DNA from: Sideroxydans sp.
GTDB lineage: Bacteria; Pseudomonadota; Gammaproteobacteria; Burkholderiales; Gallionellaceae
DNA length: 64,000 bases
Assembly: GCA_028707175.1 (NCBI GenBank)
Contig: JAQTUV010000007.1
Span: 1-64,000 of the forward strand
Reading direction: 5' to 3'
In this document: piece after piece, positions 46,123 through 62,766 of the stretch
Numbering within the stretch: the first letter of the stretch is position 1
Layout of the letters: each line of letters starts with the position of its first letter
Made by a program: the position numbers and the translations under genes
Notes under the pieces: model-generated
Told to the model about the DNA's origin: nothing
What the model saw: only the letters and a program-made list of their open reading frames with translations
Database searches by the model: none

Positions 46123-47409
46123 CTAACCTTCTGCGCCATCACTCAACAAGCGCGAGATGCGCGTGTTGGCAACAGCTAATCTTTTCACCAACATACCCAA
46201 GAACGCCTCGCTGAATTGAAAGCGACAATTTGCAGAGGCCAGCGCCAAGACTGCCGGATCGATCTCGATCAACTTCACATCCGTCTTGGCGAACACATCG
46301 GTAGAACGCCTCGCATCCTCGCCCGAAAAATGTGCCATCTCACCAAAACAATCGCCCTTATGTAGCAGGCTGATCAACCTACCTTGCTTCACCACGCGCA
46401 CCGAACCGTTCGCGACGATATAGAACTTTTCCCCTAGCTCGCCCTCGCTGATGATTTGCTCATCCTTATGAATCTTGCGCCATTCACTGATGCGCAACAC
46501 CTCCCACAACTCCACATCGCTGAAACCTGCAAAGAATGGTAAAGCGCGCAAGGTATCGAACTTTTCAGTATCAAAAAATTCTGCCTGCTGCGGCACGTTG
46601 TAGCTGATGAACGACACCAAGTCGCGCGCAAAGGCATCCCATGTCTGGTAACGATGTGCCACATCCTTGCACATGGCGCGCATCACGATGGCATCTAACT
46701 CAGGCGGAATCTCCGGACGGAAAGTGCTCGGCACAGCCGGATCGATATTCATGATCTGATAGATCATGCTGAAATTATTCGCGGCCTCATAAGGCAAACG
46801 CCCTGTCAGCAAGCGATACATCGTGACACCCAAAGAATAAATGTCAGTTTGATGCGACAGCTTTTGTTCTTTGATCTGCTCCGGCGACATATAGGCAGGC
46901 GACCCTACGCCCGTCACCTGCGTCGTCTGATGATTCTCCAGCAGCGCCGCACCGAAGTCGGAAATCTTAATATCGCTCTCACCCTGAATCAGAATATTCG
47001 CCGGCTTGATATCGCGATGGATGACACCTTGGAACTGCGCGTATTCCAGCGCCTTAGAACATTTATAGACAATCTCGGCGATACGTCCAAGGGGCAGCAG
47101 ATGATCGACCTCGCCGAACTTCTCCAACGTCTCACCCTCGACGTATTCGATCACCATGTAATTCACATCCCCTTCCATCACCGCGTCCAGAATCTTGACG
47201 ATATGAGGATGAGATAGTTTTCCAACCAGCGACGATTCAACCAAAATCAGCTTACGCATCGCCCTGCCCGCTGTGGTTAATTTCAACACATCAGAGAACA
47301 CCTTCAACGCCACCTGCTGTTGATTGAATGGGTCTAGCGCGAGGTACACCGTACTGGTGGCCCCGCTTCCCAACTCTTTCAAAATTCTGTATTTCCCTAC
47401 TAATTGCAT
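46123..47409 (-). CDS. Ser/Thr protein kinase with C-terminal cyclic-nucleotide-binding domain
   Basis: The 428 residues start MQLVGKYRILKELGSGATSTVYL (Gly-rich loop). Catalytic lysine is in ALKVF, then HRDIKPANIL, the DFG of IKISDFGAALL, and SPEQIKEQKLSHQTDIYSLG. The whole kinase spans about 5-265. From about 290 to 405 is a cNMP-binding fold (IISEGELGEKFYIVANGSVRVV, GDCFGEMAHFSGEDARRST). There is no membrane segment between. Cyclic-nucleotide control of the kinase is an inference from this architecture. The start was chosen where the kinase fold begins. Confidence 0.92.
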   Translation of the reverse strand: MQLVGKYRILKELGSGATSTVYLALDPFNQQQVALKVFSDVLKLTTAGRAMRKLILVESSLVGKLSHPHIVKILDAVMEGDVNYMVIEYVEGETLEKFGEVDHLLPLGRIAEIVYKCSKALEYAQFQGVIHRDIKPANILIQGESDIKISDFGAALLENHQTTQVTGVGSPAYMSPEQIKEQKLSHQTDIYSLGVTMYRLLTGRLPYEAANNFSMIYQIMNIDPAVPSTFRPEIPPELDAIVMRAMCKDVAHRYQTWDAFARDLVSFISYNVPQQAEFFDTEKFDTLRALPFFAGFSDVELWEVLRISEWRKIHKDEQIISEGELGEKFYIVANGSVRVVKQGRLISLLHKGDCFGEMAHFSGEDARRSTDVFAKTDVKLIEIDPAVLALASANCRFQFSEAFLGMLVKRLAVANTRISRLLSDGAEG

Positions 47410-47463
47410 GGTAGTTACTCGCGCTGAATAGCCCATATTCTGGGGCTTTGAGGCACTACTGTC

Positions 47464-49238: not shown

Positions 49239-50474
49239 TCATCCATTCGACCATTCTTCCGACAAGACTTCCGCTTGCTTAAGCACAAGTTCGATAGCGG
49301 CTTCCTGCATATCAGGCGGGTATTTATGACGACGCAACGTGATACGCACTAAATTGCGCAACCTAGCACGAACGCTGTCGCGTTTCTGCCAATCCACCGT
49401 CGTGCTGTTGCGCAGCTTATCGGTCAATTCGTGCGCTATCGTTTTCAAAATCTCATCGCCGAGTTCACGCACTGCACTTTCGTTATCTGTCAGGGCATCA
49501 TAGAAAGCCAGCTCAGACTCATTCAAACCAAGCTCATCACCACGCTTAGCTGCTTCGCGAAATTCTTTGGCCATAGCGATCAATTCTTCAATCACCTGCG
49601 CACTTTCAATAGCACGATTACGGTATCTGTTCAGCGCAGCCAGTAGACGGTCACTAAATTTTTTCTCTAGCAATACGTTAGTGCTACAGCGCGATTTAAT
49701 TTCGTCATTCAATAACTTTTGCAGCAGCTCCACCGCGAAATTACGCTGAGGAAGCTGCCGAACCTCTTCGAGAAATCCATCCGACAAAATACCAATATCC
49801 GGCCTCTCCAAACCTGCCAATTTGAAGATATCTTCCACGCCTTCTGCCAGCACGGCATTGTCGAGTATCTGTTTGAGCACCGCATTTTTATGCTCTTCCG
49901 AGAGTTTCTTGTCAGTTTCTGTTGCCTTGGCAATCACGGCTTTAATCGCTTGAAAGAAAGCGATCTCCTCACGCAGTGACATCGCTTCATCCAACGTACC
50001 GCACAATGAAAACGCCTTAGTGATTTTCAGAACAACATCAAACCAGCGCTTCTTTCCATCTTCTAAACCCAGCACAAAATTAGCAGTAGGCAACAGTAAT
50101 GTCGTCGCCTTGGTTCGATAAGCTGCGTAGTCGAAGCCGCTCAACTGCCCGCGCGCAATCTCCATGTATTCTTTTAGCTTGGCCAGCGCTTCGGCAGCAT
50201 CCAACGTCGGCATGCCCTTGCCCCAGCTCTCGGTATAAATCTTCAATGCCTTGCGCAACTCAGAAGCGATGCCGATGTAATCCACCACCAGTCCACCTTC
50301 TTTATCGCGGAATACACGATTCACCCGCGCAATCGCCTGCATCAAATTGTGATCACGCATCGGCTTATCCACATACATCGTATGCAGACACGGCACATCA
50401 AAACCTGTCAGCCACATATCGCGGACAATCACCAACTTCAGCGGATCTTTTGGATTCTTGAAACGCTTCTCCAA
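49239..50474 (-). CDS. hsdR: Type I restriction enzyme HsdR, C-terminal part (frameshifted)
   Basis: Continuation of hsdR in another frame. The 411 open residues, usable only if the frame is restored or from a TTG at 50474, begin [37 protein letters not shown], helicase motif V, followed by [14 protein letters not shown], motif VI. They end in the T1RH-like C-terminal domain (DUF3387): [20 protein letters not shown] and LRRHKYP near residues 360-386. This C-terminal part mediates docking on the HsdM/HsdS core in characterised systems. Together with the N-terminal part it forms a full-length HsdR (about 1,050 residues) broken by one frameshift. Confidence 0.9.
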
Positions 50475-52381
50475 CTCCTTCTTGGTCTTGCCGTTGTAGA
50501 TGTGATGACTGGCTCGGTATCCGCTGCCGAGCCAGTCATCACCACCTTGATCGCCCCCTGCGTTGGGTCGTCGCTGTGCCAGTCCGGACGCAATGTCACG
50601 ATTGCCTTGTAAAGGTGCGCGCAGATTTCACGGCTCATGGCCACAATCATGCCCTTGCCTTCCACTGCGGATGTGCGCGCCTCGAAATGTTGCACGATAT
50701 CTTTCGCTACTTGCTGAATGCGTGGCTCTGAGCCAACCAACTTTTCCAGTGCAGCCCACTTAGACTTCGCAGCTTCACGCGTCGCTGCGCTCTCCTCATC
50801 TTCGAACACCTCCTCAACATCATCGTTGAGTTGCTCAATCTGTGCTTGATTGATGTCCAGCTTGGCGAGACGACTCTCGTAATAGATCGGCACCGTCGCA
50901 CCATCATCCACCGCATCTTGTATGTCATAGATGCTGACGTAATCACCAAATACTGCGCGCGTGTCTTTGTCGTCGTTCTCCACTGGCGTGCCGGTAAAAC
51001 CCACAAAAGTTGCATGCGGCAGCGCGTCACGCAAATGCTTGGCGAATCCGTATTTGAACTTGCCAGTTTTCTTATCCAGCACAGCATTAAAGCCGTACTG
51101 CGAACGGTGCGCCTCGTCAGCGATCACCACGATATTGGTACGCTGTGTCAGCGTGGGGAACACTTCCTCATCCTTACTTGGCGCGAACTTCTGCATCGTT
51201 GTAAAAATAATCCCACCTGATGGACGCCCATCCAGCAGCACGCGCAATGCGTCTCGATCTTCAGCCTGTTGCGGCGTTTCTTTCAGCAGCGCACGCGCAC
51301 CGGTAAAAGTCTGGAACAACTGCCCGTCCAGATCGTTGCGGTCAGTCACCACCACGATGGTCGGATTGTGCATCTTCGGCTGTTGCATCAGCTTGCCGAC
51401 GAAGCACACCATCGAAATGCTCTTGCCCGAACCCTGCGTATGCCAAACGATGCCGCCCTTGCGCGAACCGGGCTTCACTTCCTTGCCGTAAGTCGCACGC
51501 ACCAGCTCCGCCGTATTGGGCAGCGGCCCTGTGGCCGCAACCACCGTCGCCCGCACCGCCTCGCGGACCGCATGGAACTGGTGATAGCCCGCAATCTTTT
51601 TGACGATGCCATCCTCGCCTTGTTCGTAAAGGATGAAATAACGCAAGTAATCCAGCAGCAGATCGGGCGCGAAGAATCCGCGCACCATCTTCTCCAGCTC
51701 GAACTCCAGCAAAGGCTTATCGTTCTCACTGCGCAAGGTGCGCCAAGGCAGATAGCGCTCGCGGTCTGCAGTGAGCGAACCCACGCGCGCCAGCAAACCA
51801 TCCGAAATCACCAGCGCCTCGTTGAACACAAACAGATCGGAAATTTCCGCCTTATACGTTTCCAGTTGATTGAACGCAGACCAGATGTCCGCCTGCTCGG
51901 CAGCCGGATTTTTCAGCTCGATTACTGAGATGGGCAAACCGTTGATGAAGCACACCAGATCGGGGCGGCGTGGCTGCTTAATACCCTGAATGGTGAACTG
52001 ATTCACCACCAAAAAGCGATTGTTCTCGGCATGCTCAAAATCCATCAGCCGCACGCGGTCACCGCGTTTCACGCCGTCAACTTCCACCTCCACCGCCACA
52101 CCGTCCAGCAACAGCTCGTGAAAGCTGCGGTTACTCTGAAGCAGCGAAGGCTCGTGCAGCTTGCTCACCCGATGCGCCACCTCATCTAGCACCGATTCCG
52201 GCACACCCGGATTCAGTCGGCGCAACGCATCAAGCAGACGCTCTGCCAGCACTACCTGCCTGTAGTCTGCGCGCTCAGGTGCTGTGCCATCCGGCGCAAT
52301 GTCCGGACCATAGCAATATTCCCAGCCGCAGTCCTGAAACCAAGTAAGGGCAAGTTGTTCTAGCTGATCTTCGTTAATCAT
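50438..52381 (-). CDS. hsdR: Type I restriction enzyme HsdR, N-terminal part (frameshifted)
   Basis: Restriction and translocation subunit. From the ATG at 52381 there are 647 residues. The nuclease domain has [20 protein letters not shown], a PD-(D/E)xK site. The helicase motor has WHTQGSGKS (Walker A), [13 protein letters not shown] (DEAH motif) and VGFTGTP (motif III). The frame fails after VVMTGSAAD, where family members continue with a WQPH segment; the remaining residues to the stop are out of frame. The break coincides with a 16-bp inverted repeat. The start overlaps the upstream AlbA_2 gene by eight bases. As it stands, restriction should be inactive unless the frame is restored. Confidence 0.93.
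50502..50542. repeat. Perfect 16-bp inverted repeat at the hsdR frameshift
   Basis: GTGATGACTGGCTCGG (50502-50517), spacer TATCCGCTG, then its exact reverse complement (50527-50542). On the coding strand the arm that encodes VMTGS has been copied in inverted form over the place where the WQP codons are expected. The net length leaves the frame off by one class. Confidence 0.9.
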
Positions 52382-54356
52382 TGCTACTGCCCTTATTGCT
52401 GGTATATGCCTGCTGCGGATGCGTCGGCACTGTTGGGAAGGCCAAAGCCAGATGGCCGCTATCAACCAAAGGCTTCAAAGTATTTTTTCTCAACGCTTCC
52501 GGTTTGCGATTCACAAGCTCCGCCAACACTTGCTGCGTCAGATAAACATCCTTGCATAGCCTTGTAAGAATTCTTGTCATTTCATCCGGAGCCATTCGAG
52601 GTTTATTTCTAGCTTCCTCGGCTACGGACATTAGCTCCTGTCGCAGAGTATCTGGCAGTAGAGCAATGTTATCTATCAAGGGCTTGTTTAACCCTTTGAC
52701 CAGCAGGTGGCCATCTTCATGGCGGGCCGATTTGGGCTGTATGCAGTCGTTATGTCCGGAGCTCAGATCGTTATGTCCGGAGCTCAAATCTGAGGGGGAA
52801 TCCTGAGCTCCGGACATAAAGCTACCGTCACCAAACGCTTGATCGGGCGTCGGCAGATTTTGCCCCGGCAGATGGTAAACCGTGCCTTTACCATGCCCAC
52901 TAGATTCCAAAATTTCTGATTTAACCAGTCTCTGGAAAGCCAACGTCAGATCATGTGCATGTTCCGTGGAAATTTCCGCCATACGCCTATGAGTAACGGT
53001 TTGCTCTGTCGCTGCCGCTGCAAGAATCAATTGCTCCAGATGTGGCAAGTGGTCGAACATCTTGCCCAAGCTCTCCCGCAATTCGCGAACCGCCCCTTCC
53101 GGCAACAAACTTAACATCCTGAGCTCAAGCAGCGTTTGCTCCGATGGTTGTTCTTTTTCCACCAGCAATGGAGCACGCCAATGCTGGCTATCCCACCCTT
53201 GATATATCTTCGGTATCCCCGACCCGGCCTGCTCACCCAGACCGATATAGCGGAACATCTGATGCAGCAAACGATTACGGCAATCACTATCACCACCGGC
53301 AACGGCAATTTCCTGCGGCACCCGCATCAAACCTGGATTGCGGAAACCAAACATATCTGGGCGCTTAACCACCAGAACCGAGGCCCGCCCTGAATAGTCC
53401 GCATGTACAAGCGTATTGACCAAAGCTTCACGCAATGCCTGATGCACCGCCGTATCGTCCTTGCGCAAATCGCCTTCCAGCGAGAAGGGCACCTTCAAAT
53501 CACTCGTCAGCTTTTTAATCACCCGCCGGTAAAAATCAAACAGATTGCCGGACCACGAACCATCCAGCGTCAACCGATCAACCCAACGCGCCTCAGTCTT
53601 GGCCTCGGCACGCTCCTGATAGTCGAGCATATAGTTAGGAAACGCCTCTTGAATGGAAGGCAGTCGACCGAACATCAGCAGCCCGGCGCGAGTGAATCCA
53701 CCTTGCCCCGTCTCCCGATCTATCCGCCAAGCACCAATATTCCGCATAAAGGTTTGCGGATCGCCCTGATTCCACGGATGGTCTGGTGAGCGAGCTGCAT
53801 AAAGATTGCGGTAAGCATTGAAACTCTCTACATCGATATCATTCAGACCGTAGCCTTGGAGAATCTCGTTGTCGCGGCTATCTTCCACCTGCTCCGCCAG
53901 CATGCGACGCACGCTTTCTTCATCGCATTGATAATCGCCGCTGTTCTGCCTTTTATAAGTGCCCGTTATCGGATTGCCACCGATGTAAACCGGCCGACTC
54001 TTACGGGCTGCCCTCGGCACATGAATGCGAATCACCGACTGCCCGTCAAGATCAATCACCTGCACATGTTGCTCATTCAGCAGATTGGCGCTCACCTTCT
54101 GCGAGTTGTTCAGGTTATTCCAAAGTTCTTCGATGACCCTGCCATGATTCACGATGCCATGAATCTGAAACCGCCCCGCATTTTCTTTCACGCCAAGCAA
54201 CACATCGCCACCATAGCTGTTAGCCAATGCGCTATAGGTCGCCCAAAAGTCCTTCGGCAGCTCACCCTTGCCATCGCGCCCTGCCGCCAGCTTGCATTCC
54301 ACCTCGAAACTTTCTCGGAGTGCCTCAATATCGGCAATGGATTTAATTTCAAGCAT
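52374..54356 (-). CDS. AlbA_2 / HATPase_c_4 ATP-binding protein of the RM operon
   Basis: The 660 residues begin with an AlbA_2 (Schlafen-type) domain at about 8-140 (ESFEVECKLAAGRDGKGELP, SYGGDVLLGVKENAG). A GHKL-like ATPase region, HATPase_c_4, follows at about 290-410 (QALREALVNTLVHADYSGRA, then GEQAGSGIPKIY). The rest is winged-helix-like segments. This is the COG2865 type, often called a transcriptional regulator and frequently found inside type I RM loci. Its action there is not established; it may regulate the operon or be a defence component. A low-complexity linker has a 7-residue tandem repeat. It overlaps hsdR by eight bases. Confidence 0.85.
   Translation of the reverse strand: MLEIKSIADIEALRESFEVECKLAAGRDGKGELPKDFWATYSALANSYGGDVLLGVKENAGRFQIHGIVNHGRVIEELWNNLNNSQKVSANLLNEQHVQVIDLDGQSVIRIHVPRAARKSRPVYIGGNPITGTYKRQNSGDYQCDEESVRRMLAEQVEDSRDNEILQGYGLNDIDVESFNAYRNLYAARSPDHPWNQGDPQTFMRNIGAWRIDRETGQGGFTRAGLLMFGRLPSIQEAFPNYMLDYQERAEAKTEARWVDRLTLDGSWSGNLFDFYRRVIKKLTSDLKVPFSLEGDLRKDDTAVHQALREALVNTLVHADYSGRASVLVVKRPDMFGFRNPGLMRVPQEIAVAGGDSDCRNRLLHQMFRYIGLGEQAGSGIPKIYQGWDSQHWRAPLLVEKEQPSEQTLLELRMLSLLPEGAVRELRESLGKMFDHLPHLEQLILAAAATEQTVTHRRMAEISTEHAHDLTLAFQRLVKSEILESSGHGKGTVYHLPGQNLPTPDQAFGDGSFMSGAQDSPSDLSSGHNDLSSGHNDCIQPKSARHEDGHLLVKGLNKPLIDNIALLPDTLRQELMSVAEEARNKPRMAPDEMTRILTRLCKDVYLTQQVLAELVNRKPEALRKNTLKPLVDSGHLALAFPTVPTHPQQAYTSNKGSSND
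52749..52819. repeat. 21-bp tandem repeat and 16-bp inverted repeat within the AlbA_2 gene
   Basis: Two 21-base units (52749-52769 and 52770-52790) differ at one base and encode DLSSGHN twice. TTATGTCCGGAGCTCA at 52771-52786 is followed after 17 bases by its exact reverse complement at 52804-52819. Confidence 0.85.
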
Positions 54357-54476: not shown

Positions 54477-55685
54477 TCACCACCAAGTGCCGGCTAACTG
54501 ATTACCCTTAAACCAGAGCAATCGTATTTCAGCGTACCTAAGTAAATCTTTAACGTTTGCTTCCGGCTCTTTGGGAAGTAAAACAGCCATATCGACTTTA
54601 TCTCGATTGTCTAACTGCCGATGGTAATCAAGCAGTTGTCCTATTGCCATCCGCACATCCGATATTTCAGTGCTGGATTTCACCTCAATGAGCAAGTCAG
54701 ACATGCCGTCGTAATCCGTAACCAAGGCATCGTATCTACACTTCTGATCGCTCCCCTCGACGATCTTGCCTTTTCCGATAAAGACACGCAGCAATTGGTT
54801 GGTCAGATCATTGTGTATTCTCTTCGCCTTCACCGACAGGTTCTTCTTCAGCACCTCATAATCATCTGCGTCCTTAGGCGGTAAATCTCTGCTCTTAGGC
54901 GTAACCAACTTAAACTTGTTTTTCAGTTGTTGAATTTCTTTTGAATCCCATTTTCGAAGTTGATCAAGGTCTGCCGCGTCTTTTACGCCTTTACTTCCTA
55001 ACAACGATACTAGCGCCGAATACTTAACAGCAAGCTTGGCCTTATTGACATCAAATTCACGCAACAGGTTTACCACGTTGACTGATCCGTTAATAATCGG
55101 GAAACGTAAATTAGGATCAAGACAAAAACAAAGGGGGGAAAGCAGATATTCCGGATGTGCGGCACGTTCCCCACTGGGGGAAGGTATTGGGCTTAAGCTG
55201 CTTATTTTTTCTGCAATTAGCACACCCTGATTATCTGATTCCGATGAATATGTATCCTTCAAAATTGCCGATATCTTCGACCGATTTGCCCGTATCCAAT
55301 CCAGAGAAGAATTCCGATAGGCCTTATAAAAATTGGTAAATCCCGTACTACCCTCAATGATGGGCTTTACCTTTGATGCTGGTTCGCCCGTGATTGCCTG
55401 TATGTCTTTTGATACATCTGATAATGACCACCCAGAATAATCCCGATTAAAAATCGTACCGAGTGCTGGTAGTTTGGTGCTTATCACGTAACTGCTATCA
55501 GTCACTGCCTGCTCATAGTTCTTTGTAATCCACGTAAGCTTGACCAAGGCGTGCATCGTCTCAGCCTTCACACTTGATGTCCGGCTTAGATACTCATAAC
55601 AAAACCTGACCAATTGAGACGTAAGCCGCTGCTTCTTGGACCAGACATCCGCGTAAGAATGCTTCTTTAGCGATTTAAGACTCAC
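54477..55685 (-). CDS. Unrecognised protein with a C-terminal PD-(D/E)XK nuclease-like domain
   Basis: The 402 residues are not in a family I know. The C-terminal 90 show the layout of a restriction-endonuclease fold: RYDALVTDYDGMSDLLIEVK, with Asp319 or Asp330, Glu334 and Lys336 as possible metal ligands, and Gln350 in GQLLDYHR as the helix residue seen in several PD-(D/E)XK groups. The first 300 are mixed and basic. The GTG start at 55685 overlaps the FRG gene by 11 bases. At about residues 167-190 an odd Pro/Ser-rich insert (SPIPSPSGERAAHPEYLL) looks like a palindromic repeat read in frame. It could be a second nuclease of this locus. Confidence 0.75.
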   Translation of the reverse strand: MSLKSLKKHSYADVWSKKQRLTSQLVRFCYEYLSRTSSVKAETMHALVKLTWITKNYEQAVTDSSYVISTKLPALGTIFNRDYSGWSLSDVSKDIQAITGEPASKVKPIIEGSTGFTNFYKAYRNSSLDWIRANRSKISAILKDTYSSESDNQGVLIAEKISSLSPIPSPSGERAAHPEYLLSPLCFCLDPNLRFPIINGSVNVVNLLREFDVNKAKLAVKYSALVSLLGSKGVKDAADLDQLRKWDSKEIQQLKNKFKLVTPKSRDLPPKDADDYEVLKKNLSVKAKRIHNDLTNQLLRVFIGKGKIVEGSDQKCRYDALVTDYDGMSDLLIEVKSSTEISDVRMAIGQLLDYHRQLDNRDKVDMAVLLPKEPEANVKDLLRYAEIRLLWFKGNQLAGTWW

Positions 55686-56916
55686 TCTGCCCCTCCGTAA
55701 TCTTTACGGGCACGACCACTTCAAACAATTTATCCAACACCTCTTCCCGCACGCTTGCTGGATACCCATATTTCCGCAACACCACCCTTGCCGCATTGCG
55801 CATCGCGGCCTTGATGCTTTCGCGCTTCTCCCAATCGACATATTGGTTTCTGGCGATTTCCGCAGCCAGTTCGCGGGCGATAAGCTCCAGACGCGATGCC
55901 TCTACCTGTGCACTATCTGTTGGTGCAGACAAGACCTTTTGGAATTCGGCAATCAATGCTTCAGCTGGCTCGACCTCTATTTCTTCGGTAATTTCCGGCA
56001 GTGGCTTCTCAGTTTCTTGCTGCTTACGTTTGACAATCTCCTCCTCGCGCATTTGCTGCGCCTCTTCCGCCACCATGATGTTGCAGAACGAGGAAGCTCC
56101 AATCAGGTCAGGGAACAGGCTGGCATGGTGCACGTTCATCATGCGTAAATGACGCAAACAATCCGTTCGGTCTTCGTTTGGAATATAGATTTTGCACAGA
56201 TAATTGGACAAAACTTCGGCCTCGTCATCCTCAGGCACATCCTGCAACACCTCATCCTGCAAGGACTGAATTAAGAAATTTTCCAGCGTATTTCCATAAG
56301 AAGTATATGTGAACAACCCAGCCTGATTCACCAGACGACCATGATCATCCTTACGCGGTTCAAGGACGCTCACATCCGGACACTGATCCGCTGCCTCAAC
56401 ATGCGTTTTGTTCAGCACGTAGATCGCACGGTATGGATTTTCCAATTCACCCTGTCTCGGATCATCCACCTCAAATGCAAAGAACAAGGCCACATAGGGC
56501 GAATATGTCCAATCTAGCAGCGGCGTCAGCAAACCGTGATGCTGCCCCACCGACCATAGTTCATATTCTTCTTCCATCTCAACTAATGTTCGGTCTGAAA
56601 GGCGACCGCGCACCGCACGTCGGAACAAGCGCAGCTGTGCATCGGCCACTTCTTGAGTAATGATCCGACGTGTATCAAATCTCCCAAGCGATGGTGTCAG
56701 CGGCCAGTCATAGCGGCGGTGACCGCGAAAAATCAGTTGTGTCTTGGGTCGATTAAAGAAGGGAGCCTCCAACAACTCTGGCAATTTCCTCCAACTTGAT
56801 ACTCGCGTTACCGGTATACGCCCGCTAACTAAATCACCTGTGACTGCAAACACAGGCCACTCCGGCACGTTATCGAAGTGTTTTGTGTCAAGCATTTCTT
56901 CGGGCTGATCACTCAT
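55675..56916 (-). CDS. FRG-domain protein with an HsdR-type C-terminal domain
   Basis: The 413 residues contain an FRG domain at about 35-220: QLIFRGHRRYDWPLTPSLGR with the naming F-R-G, and LWSVGQHHGLLTPLLDWTYS. FRG domains are of unknown function and are common in defence loci. After a Glu/Lys-rich linker (about 275-310), residues about 340-390 match the C-terminus of the HsdR in this operon: VDWEKRESIKAAMRNAARVV followed by LRKYGYP against [20 protein letters not shown] followed by LRRHKYP, 14 of 27 identical. I infer that this protein docks onto HsdM/HsdS as HsdR does. The start overlaps the hsdS stop (ATGA). Confidence 0.85.
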   Translation of the reverse strand: MSDQPEEMLDTKHFDNVPEWPVFAVTGDLVSGRIPVTRVSSWRKLPELLEAPFFNRPKTQLIFRGHRRYDWPLTPSLGRFDTRRIITQEVADAQLRLFRRAVRGRLSDRTLVEMEEEYELWSVGQHHGLLTPLLDWTYSPYVALFFAFEVDDPRQGELENPYRAIYVLNKTHVEAADQCPDVSVLEPRKDDHGRLVNQAGLFTYTSYGNTLENFLIQSLQDEVLQDVPEDDEAEVLSNYLCKIYIPNEDRTDCLRHLRMMNVHHASLFPDLIGASSFCNIMVAEEAQQMREEEIVKRKQQETEKPLPEITEEIEVEPAEALIAEFQKVLSAPTDSAQVEASRLELIARELAAEIARNQYVDWEKRESIKAAMRNAARVVLRKYGYPASVREEVLDKLFEVVVPVKITEGQSES

Positions 56917-58235
56917 GTATCACCTGTAACCGGAACGCGTAATTCGCCGGTGAGTAGCTTTGGAAGCAATGCATCGCGAGCATCTGCCAAGCCGATGTTC
57001 TGTACATTAATGGCGGAAGTTTTTCGCCTAAGGTCAAGCACACATTCATCGAAATGATTCCGCAAGGCGATTGGCGGCATCAACACTGAAAGAGCGCCTA
57101 GCCGAGTCCGTGACAACTCAGTCTGGCCCGTACTTCCCTCCCCTAGCGCTTCAATCTCGGCTTGCCGTTCCAGCAACACCACGCCCAAATAATTCCAAGA
57201 TACTTTCTGCGCGTCTGCGCGCACAACGGTGACATGAGAATCAACAATCGTTGGTTCATCTATTACGAGTATTTGTGCAACACGACCAAGTGTTCCTACA
57301 CCTGTCGAGTTAACGAGAATATCGCCTATCTTAATATCTCGATCATCCACACCACGTTGTGTTGGGTCATGACGCCGGCCTTTCGATGTATCGACATGAC
57401 TATCACGGACACACTTCTGGTTGAGAACCAGGATCCCTCCATCGTCAATGTACTTAGGCGAAATGCCACGACCGAGGTAGTTCGTTAACTGATCGAGCTG
57501 CTTCACTTCCCACCCCTCCGGTATCTCGCCGAGTTTGGAGACCACGAGGCGGTCGGGGAAGAGAGCGAGGAGTTCGGGGGTGAGGCCAAGGCGTTGGCAG
57601 ATGGATTCGGGCGGTTCGCCGTTCATCTTGGCGCGGACGGGATCAAAGCTCACGAACCACGACTTGAACAACGCCCGCGCGATGGCCTCCAGCGTTCCGT
57701 TCATGCGGCGGTTCAGTTCGATCTTGTCGTCGAACGCGCCAAGGATATGGGCGATTGCGCGTTGCTCTTCCGGTGATGGAAGGTTTACGCTCATGCGTTT
57801 CAAGTGCATTGGCCCAAAATGCTTAATTACGCTTCCTACCCCAGCAGCTTCAATCTGATGCTGAAAATCAGACGAAGCTAAGAGGTAACGAATAAATGGA
57901 GCAAAGACACGCCGATCACGCGGGCGCATCCGAATCAGACCCGTGTAGGCAATTGCGCCAATCCCATCTGAGCCAACAACTGCAACACGCCCTAGAGACG
58001 CAGACGTGCTAAGCAGTATGTCACCTTCTTGAAGCGCAAAATGCGACCATTTCTTTGCAACCATTTCAGGATCGAGGTAGTTACAACCATTCAGGATCGA
58101 CGCACCCACATCAAGACCTGCCAACCTAACAAGTGGCACGCCTTCTTCCCTAAAGTCCTTTGCGAGAATGCCCGGCCCTTCCTGAAAGTCTATGACTTCA
58201 GCAAACGGCCAATTCGTATATTCCTCACCCGCCAT
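56913..58235 (-). CDS. hsdS: Type I restriction-modification specificity subunit HsdS
   Basis: Recognises the two-part DNA target for methylation and restriction. The 440 residues form two target-recognition domains, about 5-160 and 245-395, separated by conserved helices: LPSPEEQRAIAHILGAFDDK and the LNRRMNGTLEAIARALFKSW segment, and by the closing ALLPKLLTGELRV. The target cannot be read from sequence. The ATG at 58235 overlaps hsdM by 11 bases; a longer frame to 58283 lies within hsdM. Confidence 0.95.
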   Translation of the reverse strand: MAGEEYTNWPFAEVIDFQEGPGILAKDFREEGVPLVRLAGLDVGASILNGCNYLDPEMVAKKWSHFALQEGDILLSTSASLGRVAVVGSDGIGAIAYTGLIRMRPRDRRVFAPFIRYLLASSDFQHQIEAAGVGSVIKHFGPMHLKRMSVNLPSPEEQRAIAHILGAFDDKIELNRRMNGTLEAIARALFKSWFVSFDPVRAKMNGEPPESICQRLGLTPELLALFPDRLVVSKLGEIPEGWEVKQLDQLTNYLGRGISPKYIDDGGILVLNQKCVRDSHVDTSKGRRHDPTQRGVDDRDIKIGDILVNSTGVGTLGRVAQILVIDEPTIVDSHVTVVRADAQKVSWNYLGVVLLERQAEIEALGEGSTGQTELSRTRLGALSVLMPPIALRNHFDECVLDLRRKTSAINVQNIGLADARDALLPKLLTGELRVPVTGDT

Positions 58236-59859
58236 AACCCAGCCTCGCCAAGTTATCGCGTATCGCCCTTTCCAATCCCGCACTCTCGCCGAACTGCTCG
58301 TTCAACTGCGCAGTGAGCCGCGCCATCTTTTCCTCGAAAGGCTCGCCGTCTTGTTCCTGTTCTGCCGCGCCAACGTAGCGACCTGGGGTGAGAACATAGT
58401 CATGTTTGCGAATGTCATTAAGCACGACGGATTTGCAGAAGGCGGGTATATCTTCGTAGCCTTCACCTTTTTTCCATGCATGGAAGGTGGCGGCGATCTT
58501 GCGGATGTCTTCTTCCGCGAAGTCGCGCAGCACGCGATCTTTCATGTAGCCGAGGTTGCGGGCGTCGATGAACAAGGTGTGGTTCTTGCGATCTCGCCAG
58601 CCGCTACGTGCCGTCTTGTTGCGGGTGAGGAACCAGATGCAGGCAGGTATCTGAGTGTTGGTGAAAAGCTGACCGGGCAGCGCGACCATGCATTCGACGA
58701 GATCGGCTTCGATAATGGCCTTGCGTATCTCGCCTTCGTTGTTGGTGTTGCTGCTCATGGAGCCGTTGGCGAGCAGCAGGGCCATGCTGCCGTTGGGGGC
58801 GAGGTGGTGGATCATGTGCTGCATCCACGCGAAGTTGGCGTTGCCGGCGGGCGGGATGCCATATTTCCAGCGCGGGTCGTCGTCTTTTACGCCGGCGTTC
58901 CATTCCTTCATGTTGAAGGGCGGGTTGGCCATGATGAAGTCGGCACGCAGGTCGGGGTGCTGGTCGCGGGTGTAGGTGCTAGCGGGTTCCTTGCCGAGGT
59001 CGAAATCCATGCCGCGAATCGCCATGTTCATGCAGGCGAGCTTCCAGGTGGTGGGGTTGGACTCCTGCCCGTAAACGGAAAGTTGGCCGATGCGCCCACC
59101 GTGTTCTTCGACGAATTTTTCAGATGAAACGAAGAAGCCGCCGGAGCCGCAGGCGGGGTCGTACACGCGGCCTTTATAAGGCTCCAGCATTTCGACAATG
59201 GTGGTGACGATGCTCTTGGGCGTGTAGTACTGCCCGCCCTTCTTGCCTTCGGCAATGGCGAACTGGCCGAGGAAATATTCATAGACGTGGCCGAGGATGT
59301 CTTTGGCTTTGAGCGTGTGATGCTTAAAGGGGACTTCGGCGATGAGGTCGATCAGACCGGGGAGTGCGCTGTCGATCTGTTTGCGCGCATAGTCTTTTTC
59401 CAGCACGCCTTTGAGTTTGGTATTTTCTTTTTCAACGGCTTCGAGCGCGTCGTCAAGCAGGCGTCCGATGCCGTTGAATTTGTATTCGTAAACCTTGCCG
59501 TTTTTGACCTCAAGCTTGGTGCCGTTGGCGACCTTGGCGTGATCCTTGATGAAGTCCCAGCGCGCTAGCGCAGGCACCCAGAATACGTTTTTCTCGGTGT
59601 AGTAGTCACGCGCTTCGAGTTCCTGTTCGATCAGCTCTGCGCTGTCGGGGCCGAGGTAGTAATCGTTCTTAGGGTCAATGAACGCAGCCTGCAATTCTTC
59701 GCGACGTTCTTTGAATGCATCGGATACGTATTTGAGAAAGATGAGGCCGAGTACGACGTGCTTATAAACTGCCGCATCGAGCATAGGAAGCAGCTTGTTT
59801 GCTGCGGTCCATAATTTCTTGTCGAGTTCGTTGAGAAACTGCTGCTCTTCATTATTCAT
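58225..59859 (-). CDS. hsdM: Type I restriction-modification methyltransferase subunit HsdM
   Basis: N6-adenine methyltransferase. The 544 residues have the helical N-terminal domain (FLNELDKKLWTAANKLLPML, YVSDAFKERREELQ). The AdoMet motif lies in VYDPACGSGGFFVSSEKF and the catalytic NPPF in FIMANPPFNMKEW. The C-terminal region near residue 490 onward is complete. The ATG at 59859 has GGGGAG upstream. It begins the operon hsdM-hsdS-FRG-PD-(D/E)XK-AlbA_2-hsdR. Confidence 0.97.
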   Translation of the reverse strand: MNNEEQQFLNELDKKLWTAANKLLPMLDAAVYKHVVLGLIFLKYVSDAFKERREELQAAFIDPKNDYYLGPDSAELIEQELEARDYYTEKNVFWVPALARWDFIKDHAKVANGTKLEVKNGKVYEYKFNGIGRLLDDALEAVEKENTKLKGVLEKDYARKQIDSALPGLIDLIAEVPFKHHTLKAKDILGHVYEYFLGQFAIAEGKKGGQYYTPKSIVTTIVEMLEPYKGRVYDPACGSGGFFVSSEKFVEEHGGRIGQLSVYGQESNPTTWKLACMNMAIRGMDFDLGKEPASTYTRDQHPDLRADFIMANPPFNMKEWNAGVKDDDPRWKYGIPPAGNANFAWMQHMIHHLAPNGSMALLLANGSMSSNTNNEGEIRKAIIEADLVECMVALPGQLFTNTQIPACIWFLTRNKTARSGWRDRKNHTLFIDARNLGYMKDRVLRDFAEEDIRKIAATFHAWKKGEGYEDIPAFCKSVVLNDIRKHDYVLTPGRYVGAAEQEQDGEPFEEKMARLTAQLNEQFGESAGLERAIRDNLARLGYGG

Positions 59860-59970
59860 AATGCCAACCAACTCCCCTTTATTGGCCGCAGAGTGTCGCA
59901 TTCAGCGGGCGGTGTGTCTATATGCCATTTGGCCTATATATATTCAGTGCGGCCATATACCTTTTGTTTG

Positions 59971-62233: not shown

Positions 62234-62557
62234 TCAAGCAAACCCCAAGAAAACTGCTAACGCTCGATTGACTGCCAACATCGTTTGGTCGTCCATATGC
62301 CCGATCACGTCGCCAATCTTGTCGCGTGAGATGGATTGCGGTTTATCCACCATCACTTGGGATGGTTTGCCCAATCCGTTTTGCTCCGTTGGTGTCACAG
62401 CGATTCGAAACAATGGGGTATCACGCAATTCGCTGGTGATTGGCAAGATGGTGACGGAAGGATGGCTGCCGAACATATCTGATTGGATGACCAAGGCTGG
62501 GCGAGGTTTGCCAAGATCGCCCTGCAAGGCCACTGTTACCAGATCACCCCGCCTCAT
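62234..62557 (-). CDS. mazF: Type II toxin, MazF/PemK family endoribonuclease
   Basis: The 107 residues show the MazF fold: MRRGDLVTVALQGDLGKPRPALVIQSD, TILPITSELRDTPLFRI, and KPSQVMVDKPQSISRDKIGDV with the catalytic Arg/Ser/Thr region. It should cut mRNA at short motifs when the antitoxin is lost. The ATG overlaps the antitoxin stop (ATGA). The length is normal. Confidence 0.93.
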   Translation of the reverse strand: MRRGDLVTVALQGDLGKPRPALVIQSDMFGSHPSVTILPITSELRDTPLFRIAVTPTEQNGLGKPSQVMVDKPQSISRDKIGDVIGHMDDQTMLAVNRALAVFLGFA

Positions 62558-62766
62558 TGCCAACCTTCGTGATCACCTGCCGCTTCAAGCCATTCGGTCG
62601 TTTCGCGTTCGTGTGCATCACCTTGCAGTAAAAGCGATTGACGTCGGCATTCTTCGGCAAAACCCGCACGTCGCGTATCTGGCACCCATATTTGTACTGG
62701 GCGCAAGCCAGATTCGCGCAATGCGGCGCGATGCTTTTGTACTCGTTCAGATGTGGCTACGCGCAT
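62554..62766 (-). CDS. mazE: Antitoxin, MazE-family (DUF3018)
   Basis: The 70 residues contain the DUF3018 pattern ALRESGLRPVQIWVPDTRRA and FAEECRRQSLLLQGDA, typical of antitoxins paired with this MazF branch. GGAGG lies five bases before the ATG at 62766. It should bind its own promoter and neutralise the downstream toxin. Confidence 0.9.
   Translation of the reverse strand: MRVATSERVQKHRAALRESGLRPVQIWVPDTRRAGFAEECRRQSLLLQGDAHERETTEWLEAAGDHEGWQ

Follow-up and report, generated by a model that had tools for sequence, protein, structure and literature searches.

An FRG-domain protein with an HsdR-type C-terminal tail, encoded between hsdS and hsdR in type I restriction-modification operons

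Introduction

Few defence systems have been known for longer than type I restriction, and the case of PrrC established that such a system can harbour a hidden toxin. The prrC gene lies between hsdS and hsdR, and PrrC is not known to carry an HsdR-derived tail. In the EcoprrI type IC operon, the embedded PrrC is described as being sequestered by the restriction-modification (RM) complex until T4 infection (PMC3874165; PMC12707154). Another effector of this kind is DarTG2, which is placed between hsdS and hsdR in the RRDM island of enteropathogenic Escherichia coli (EPEC) E2348/69, an island reported to protect against phages (PMC12255303). Here we analysed the first 64,000 nucleotides of contig JAQTUV010000007.1 of Sideroxydans sp. 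(assembly GCA_028707175.1), hereafter the window, where the gene directly after hsdS encodes a protein that combines an FRG domain with a tail of the HsdR type.

As with PrrC, an extra gene, here for a candidate effector, is embedded in the hsd operon; however, PrrC is an ATPase and tRNA nuclease, whereas Pfam detects neither the PrrC ABC-ATPase nor its anticodon nuclease sequence in the FRG protein. DarT is an ADP-ribosyltransferase (ART) toxin in the same operon slot as the FRG protein, a predicted ART, but DarT has DarG as its antitoxin partner, and Pfam finds neither an ADP-ribosylhydrolase nor a macro domain among the seven open reading frames (ORFs) of the operon studied here. In addition, the FRG protein bears an HsdR-like tail, while the available text on the RRDM island mentions none for DarT (PMC12255303). 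The family to which the protein belongs is already listed in PADLOC, as the phage defence candidate PDC-S15 with no named function, and we found no stated link between PDC-S15 and HsdR or an hsd operon. Such PADLOC candidates are called still uncharacterised in the source available to us (PMC12482510). The sequence-only reading from which this work started knew of no described system of this form, which was too broad in view of PrrC, DarTG2 and PDC-S15. The shared HsdR tail and the operon form nevertheless appear to be new here: neither was found in the literature searched, which was mostly open-access and did not include bioRxiv preprints; embedded hsd effectors and the PDC-S15 listing were known before. 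Nor did the same literature yield a described mechanism for FRG, a domain predicted to be an immune enzyme.

Results

The start codon of the FRG gene overlaps the hsdS stop codon (ATGA, junction read directly), and its product matches the FRG family PF08867 with 88.8 bits against a cut-off of 25 (profile positions 2-89 of 94), in agreement with the sequence-only reading. Its C-terminus matches T1RH-like_C (PF11867, DUF3387), the C-terminal domain of HindI-type HsdR, with 54.3 bits against a cut-off of 26.8. The match covers model positions 251-321 of 329, so that the FRG protein shares with HsdR only the last ~70 positions, including a V/I-D-W motif, but not the rest of the domain or the motor. 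Pfam finds the FRG domain and the tail only, without an HSDR_N nuclease or a SWI2/SNF2 motor. BLASTP aligned the protein with the second HsdR ORF of its own operon (20 of 53 residues identical, E=2e-10), and a count on the two translations bore out the 14 identities in 27 positions that had first drawn attention to the tail. The PADLOC REase_I model also matches the tail (E=2.7e-7), as does a profile for which 23 HsdR tails were the only input (E=5e-15 in a search of 68 FRG proteins). D361 and W362 of the tail are invariant in the ten proteins of alignment A3. For the window protein, chance similarity is rejected on the results of Pfam, BLASTP, PADLOC and the HsdR-only profile, and at the sequence level the homology of the tail to the HsdR C-terminus is statistically solid.

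In the FRG part, R64, G65, Q125, H126, T131, D135, F146, R194, Q198 and F202 are invariant across 53 FRG sequences. Other authors have placed FRG in the ART superfamily, and it has been suggested to be an NADase (PMC9503650). Our AlphaFold model (predicted local distance difference test, pLDDT, 88.7) agrees weakly with the ART placement; an AlphaFold run from 10 sequences gave a pLDDT of 55 and was not used. The PDC-S15 model PDLC04934 (416 positions) covers residues 9-401 with 520.8 bits (E=6.7e-157), and a sequence search of the PDB returned no relative of the FRG part or of the tail. The sequence-only reading took it as established that C-termini of this type fasten HsdR to the methyltransferase. 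This was overstated, as no solved structure covers the C-terminus of a T1RH-type HsdR; the match to EcoR124I was confined to the motor region. The features of the window are collected in Table 1.

Table 1 Features of the hsd operon in the window
Feature	Position	Strand	Evidence
hsdM, N6-adenine methyltransferase subunit	58225..59901	-	Pfam PF02384, PF12161
hsdS, specificity subunit	56913..58283	-	Pfam PF01420
FRG-domain protein with HsdR-type C-terminal tail, 413 aa	55675..56916	-	PF08867 and PF11867, PADLOC PDC-S15, AlphaFold
FRG domain core, aa 60-151	56461..56739	-	Motifs R64-G65 and G124 to T137 (GQHHGLLTPLLDWT)
HsdR-like tail, aa 330-399	55720..55929	-	Pfam, BLASTP, HsdR-tail profiles
Accessory protein, 402 aa	54477..55685	-	No family match
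Accessory protein with SLFN_AlbA_2 and HATPase_c_4 domains	52374..54356	-	PF04326, PF13749
hsdR first part, HSDR_N nuclease and SWI2/SNF2 motor	50438..52465	-	PF04313, PF18766
hsdR second part, other frame, T1R_D3-like and full T1RH-like_C, bears the shared tail	49239..50474	-	PF22679, PF11867 (408.6 bits)

The survey of hsd operons for the same fusion, which the sequence-only reading had proposed together with the two profile searches above, yielded 12 further loci with the order hsdM-hsdS-FRG-hsdR and zero to two genes between FRG and hsdR, giving a total of 13 with the window; their FRG proteins belong to the same clade as that of the window. Nine came from a contig scan with a three-member alignment, all in this order, and since the scan patterns were taken from the FRG part only, a narrow FRG subfamily was sampled. 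Matches in these nine extend to query residues 384 to 409. They lie in alpha- and gammaproteobacteria and on one 7.5-kb contig of a Margulis metagenome-assembled genome (MAG), for which a binning error is possible, and they include the operon RL_RS30260 to RL_RS30275 on plasmid pRL11 of the non-pathogenic laboratory strain Rhizobium johnstonii 3841, whose FRG protein has 421 residues and matches PDLC04934 with 452.4 bits (L062, the same locus as L031), and the AqS3 MAG, where hsdS is in two pieces (L063, the same locus as L045). A viral-labelled contig (L065) is the tenth, and L073 and L074 come from two genomes that belong to the same order as the window. The candidate effector gene thus lies between hsdS and hsdR in the window and in the 12 further loci, directly after hsdS in all 13. 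HsdR is a single full-length ORF in 10 of them; in L056 and L061 the contig ends inside it, and the window has the frameshift. This indicates that the FRG protein stands beside HsdR and does not replace it.

PF08867 exceeds its curated cut-off in all 12 further loci, and PF11867 does so in eight of the 13 (the window, L056, L057, L058, L059, L060, L073 and L074), seven of them outside the window. The R. johnstonii tail, with 19.7 bits and E=6e-4 for PF11867 and E=5e-6 for the HsdR-only profile, is a ninth significant case. The four remaining tails are weak: L061 (13.4 bits) and L063 (12.9 bits) fall below the PF11867 cut-off and L064 and L065 have no listed match, while the HsdR-only profile gives about 1e-3 for L061, L064 and L065 and 8.5e-3 for L063. 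In the multiple alignment the V/I-D-W motif is kept in L061, L063 and L064 but not in L065. A mixed profile had been trained on FRG and HsdR tails together, and its E-values for L056-L064 therefore prove nothing.

For the descent of the fusion, a tree was built from 36 FRG domains (profile E<=1e-18 among the loci searched with the FRG profile, duplicates left out, window added). The 13 operon proteins fall into one clade (94/85, just under the star of the tool) with four others, namely three AqS3 paralogs nested within the clade, where they group with the AqS3 operon copy (100/100), and a long-branch Legionella protein whose place is unsure. With L065 labelled as tail-bearing by hand, three changes of the tail label are required on the tree, and starred branches force two of these. 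One AqS3 paralog of 359 residues (L063:14013) has a tail score like those of the weak four (E=1.4e-3, HsdR-only profile), the other two, of 278 and 274 residues, are too short for a tail, and none of the other 54 FRG proteins scores better than E=0.78 with that profile. Most simply, these sequences would go back to a single ancient fusion, with a tail that later decayed or was lost in AqS3 paralogs lying outside an intact operon. A recent duplication of the hsdR end inside the window operon was also considered and is unsupported, as FRG and HsdR tails of the same operon are not specially alike in the 11 operons where the two could be compared; L056 and L061, in which hsdR runs off the contig, were left out. 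The tree of the tails alone had very long branches and no resolution, and nothing was drawn from it.

The link between tail and FRG was then viewed from both sides. In an unselected set of 397 Pseudomonadota genomes, 47 contained matches to PF08867, at 54 places in all, and the 53 places other than the window were all fetched and examined. The tail was present at two of them, both between hsdS and a T1RH-type hsdR, in agreement with the HsdR-only profile, and the FRG domain stood outside the fusion at the other 51. Our FRG profile missed the FRG ORF in 10 of the 53 loci, and none of these ten contains a tail ORF. Among the tailless cases, one FRG gene lies upstream of hsdM of a T1RH-type operon (L103), and two others, from a different FRG subfamily marked by a long Gly/Ser-rich insert, are located between hsdS and a non-T1RH hsdR (L075:8366-9385 and L081:8328-9365). 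The FRG ORFs of 80 viral contigs, the best 80 of 281, carry no tail, and a scan of viral contigs with the whole FRG protein gave no match; phage records gave one weak match.

In the reverse direction, 299 genomes were searched with the tail alignment, and 47 of them contained a total of 53 matches. Of these, 38 fall on ORFs of at least 1000 residues, taken as HsdR by length, two on FRG proteins (the window and G811) and 13 on pieces. These pieces comprise the second hsdR ORF of the window, seven at contig ends, four internal ones taken as remnants (L207, L210, L211, which abuts an integrase-core ORF, and L215), and one of 49 codons (L217) in which the tail profile found nothing. Four of the other short matches (L052-L055) proved to be split, contig-end or IS21-cut HsdR genes. 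The tail also matched 77 plasmid records. In the 60 listed, every gene annotation at the match names either the R subunit of a type I system or a DUF3387 protein, and the other rows are unannotated. By these plasmid records, the tail behaves as an HsdR module.

Discussion

The domain make-up, the tail homology, the conserved gene order and the conserved putative active-site residues are direct observations, and from them we infer docking, latency, enzyme activity and a trigger for the FRG effector. Our preferred reading, to which we assign a probability of roughly 0.47, is that the gene encodes a second effector of the type I RM complex, a latent ART or NADase docked on HsdM2S through HsdR terminal helices. 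A long helix would join the FRG domain to these helices, and the tail would seat the protein on the core, either where HsdR binds or close by. The M subunits are reported to mediate the contact of R with M2S (PMC3874165), and a C-terminal mutation of HsdR in EcoR124 is reported to alter R1/R2 cycling (PMC12707154); the T1RH tail may be the piece that binds M2S. The effector would be kept latent on this complex, and because the operon shows no antitoxin to go with it, Pfam finding no ADP-ribosylhydrolase or macro domain among the seven ORFs, the complex itself would silence it. The trigger may be the encounter of the core with unmodified phage DNA, or a phage anti-restriction protein that disturbs the complex, following the logic of PrrC. 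The FRG domain, predicted to consume NAD+ or to transfer its ADP-ribose, would then be freed or switched on, and NAD+ depletion or ADP-ribosylation would stop phage growth. The alternative effector proposed by the sequence-only reading is thereby backed by the FRG domain, the tail homology and the recurrence in the same slot of 13 loci, with a strong tail in eight. It weighs against the preferred reading that the strong tails drop from 13 to these eight and one more when they are judged by Pfam and the HsdR-only profile.

One different explanation is that the FRG protein regulates assembly, competing with HsdR for HsdM2S and thereby tuning or delaying restriction, with an FRG domain that is no weapon. 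The tail is the same as that of HsdR, the gene belongs to the same operon and lies before hsdR, and restriction by EcoR124I is described as tuned by R1/R2 assembly (PMC12707154). However, the putative active-site residues are invariant over 53 diverse FRG sequences and the domain occurs mostly outside the fusion, as expected of a portable effector, and we consider this role unlikely. A direct second output, in which the FRG protein replaces one HsdR at an unmodified site and modifies phage DNA with no guard function, also seems improbable to us: the tail would bring the enzyme onto DNA-bound M2S, and the DNA-acting ART DarT of DarTG2 occupies the hsdS-hsdR slot elsewhere (PMC12255303), but FRG has been suggested to act as an NADase (PMC9503650). 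It is very doubtful that the tail is a dimerisation or folding module only and the FRG gene an independent abortive-infection gene travelling with hsd operons. In favour of this view, varied accessory genes share the slot (TIR_2, DUF4268/PDDEXK-like, DUF3800, AlbA_2), the tails show no own-operon matching and four of 13 are weak. Against it, the tail occurs in 299 genomes only on HsdR-length ORFs, HsdR pieces and FRG proteins, and free cargo would not need to stand directly after hsdS in every locus.

If the preferred reading of a docked second effector is true, HsdR is not the only effector that uses the methyltransferase core, and the FRG domain gains a place and a trigger; a toxin with HsdR's own end would also explain how such embedded toxins are held. 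More tentatively, the HsdM2S core of T1RH-type systems might be a docking platform with interchangeable outputs, into which HsdR and the predicted ART/NADase plug via the same terminal helices. One DNA-methylation sensor could then either cut invading DNA or trigger NAD-based shutdown.

Neighbouring and accessory genes

The operon of the window is contiguous on the minus strand, and two genes separate the FRG gene from hsdR. The 402-residue accessory gene overlaps the FRG gene by 11 nt, and with the ATGA overlap this makes it likely that hsdS, the FRG gene and the accessory gene are translated together. No family above cut-off was found for the accessory protein in Pfam, and none in NCBIfam or PADLOC; by eye, an I-E-V-K-S stretch at its C-terminus recalls PD-(D/E)XK nucleases. 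The hsdR gene is split into two overlapping ORFs, whereas its relatives have a single ORF of ~1050 residues, indicating a frameshift in this assembly (50438-50474), which may be either real decay or a sequencing error.

As the genes after FRG vary among loci, the slot appears to be a place for exchangeable extra genes. DUF4268/PDDEXK-like proteins are encoded between FRG and hsdR at L058:9249-11577 and L064:9359-10366, and a TIR_2-domain protein at L065:7190-8212, so that the type I operon of L065 may encode a pair of NAD-linked effectors. A Fic/DOC-family protein lies between hsdM and hsdS at L061:1790-2884. One 38-kb contig of the AqS3 MAG (G244, L045/L046) carries at least three FRG genes, the first near an AAA protein, an Eco57I-type methylase and an SNF2/PLD helicase, another in the hsdMS-FRG-hsdR order and another beside hsdM pieces. 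Elsewhere in the window, we observed a PemK/MazF-like toxin (62234-62563, PF02452, 87.1 bits) and a protein kinase with a C-terminal cyclic-nucleotide-binding domain (46123-47436, PF00069 and PF00027).
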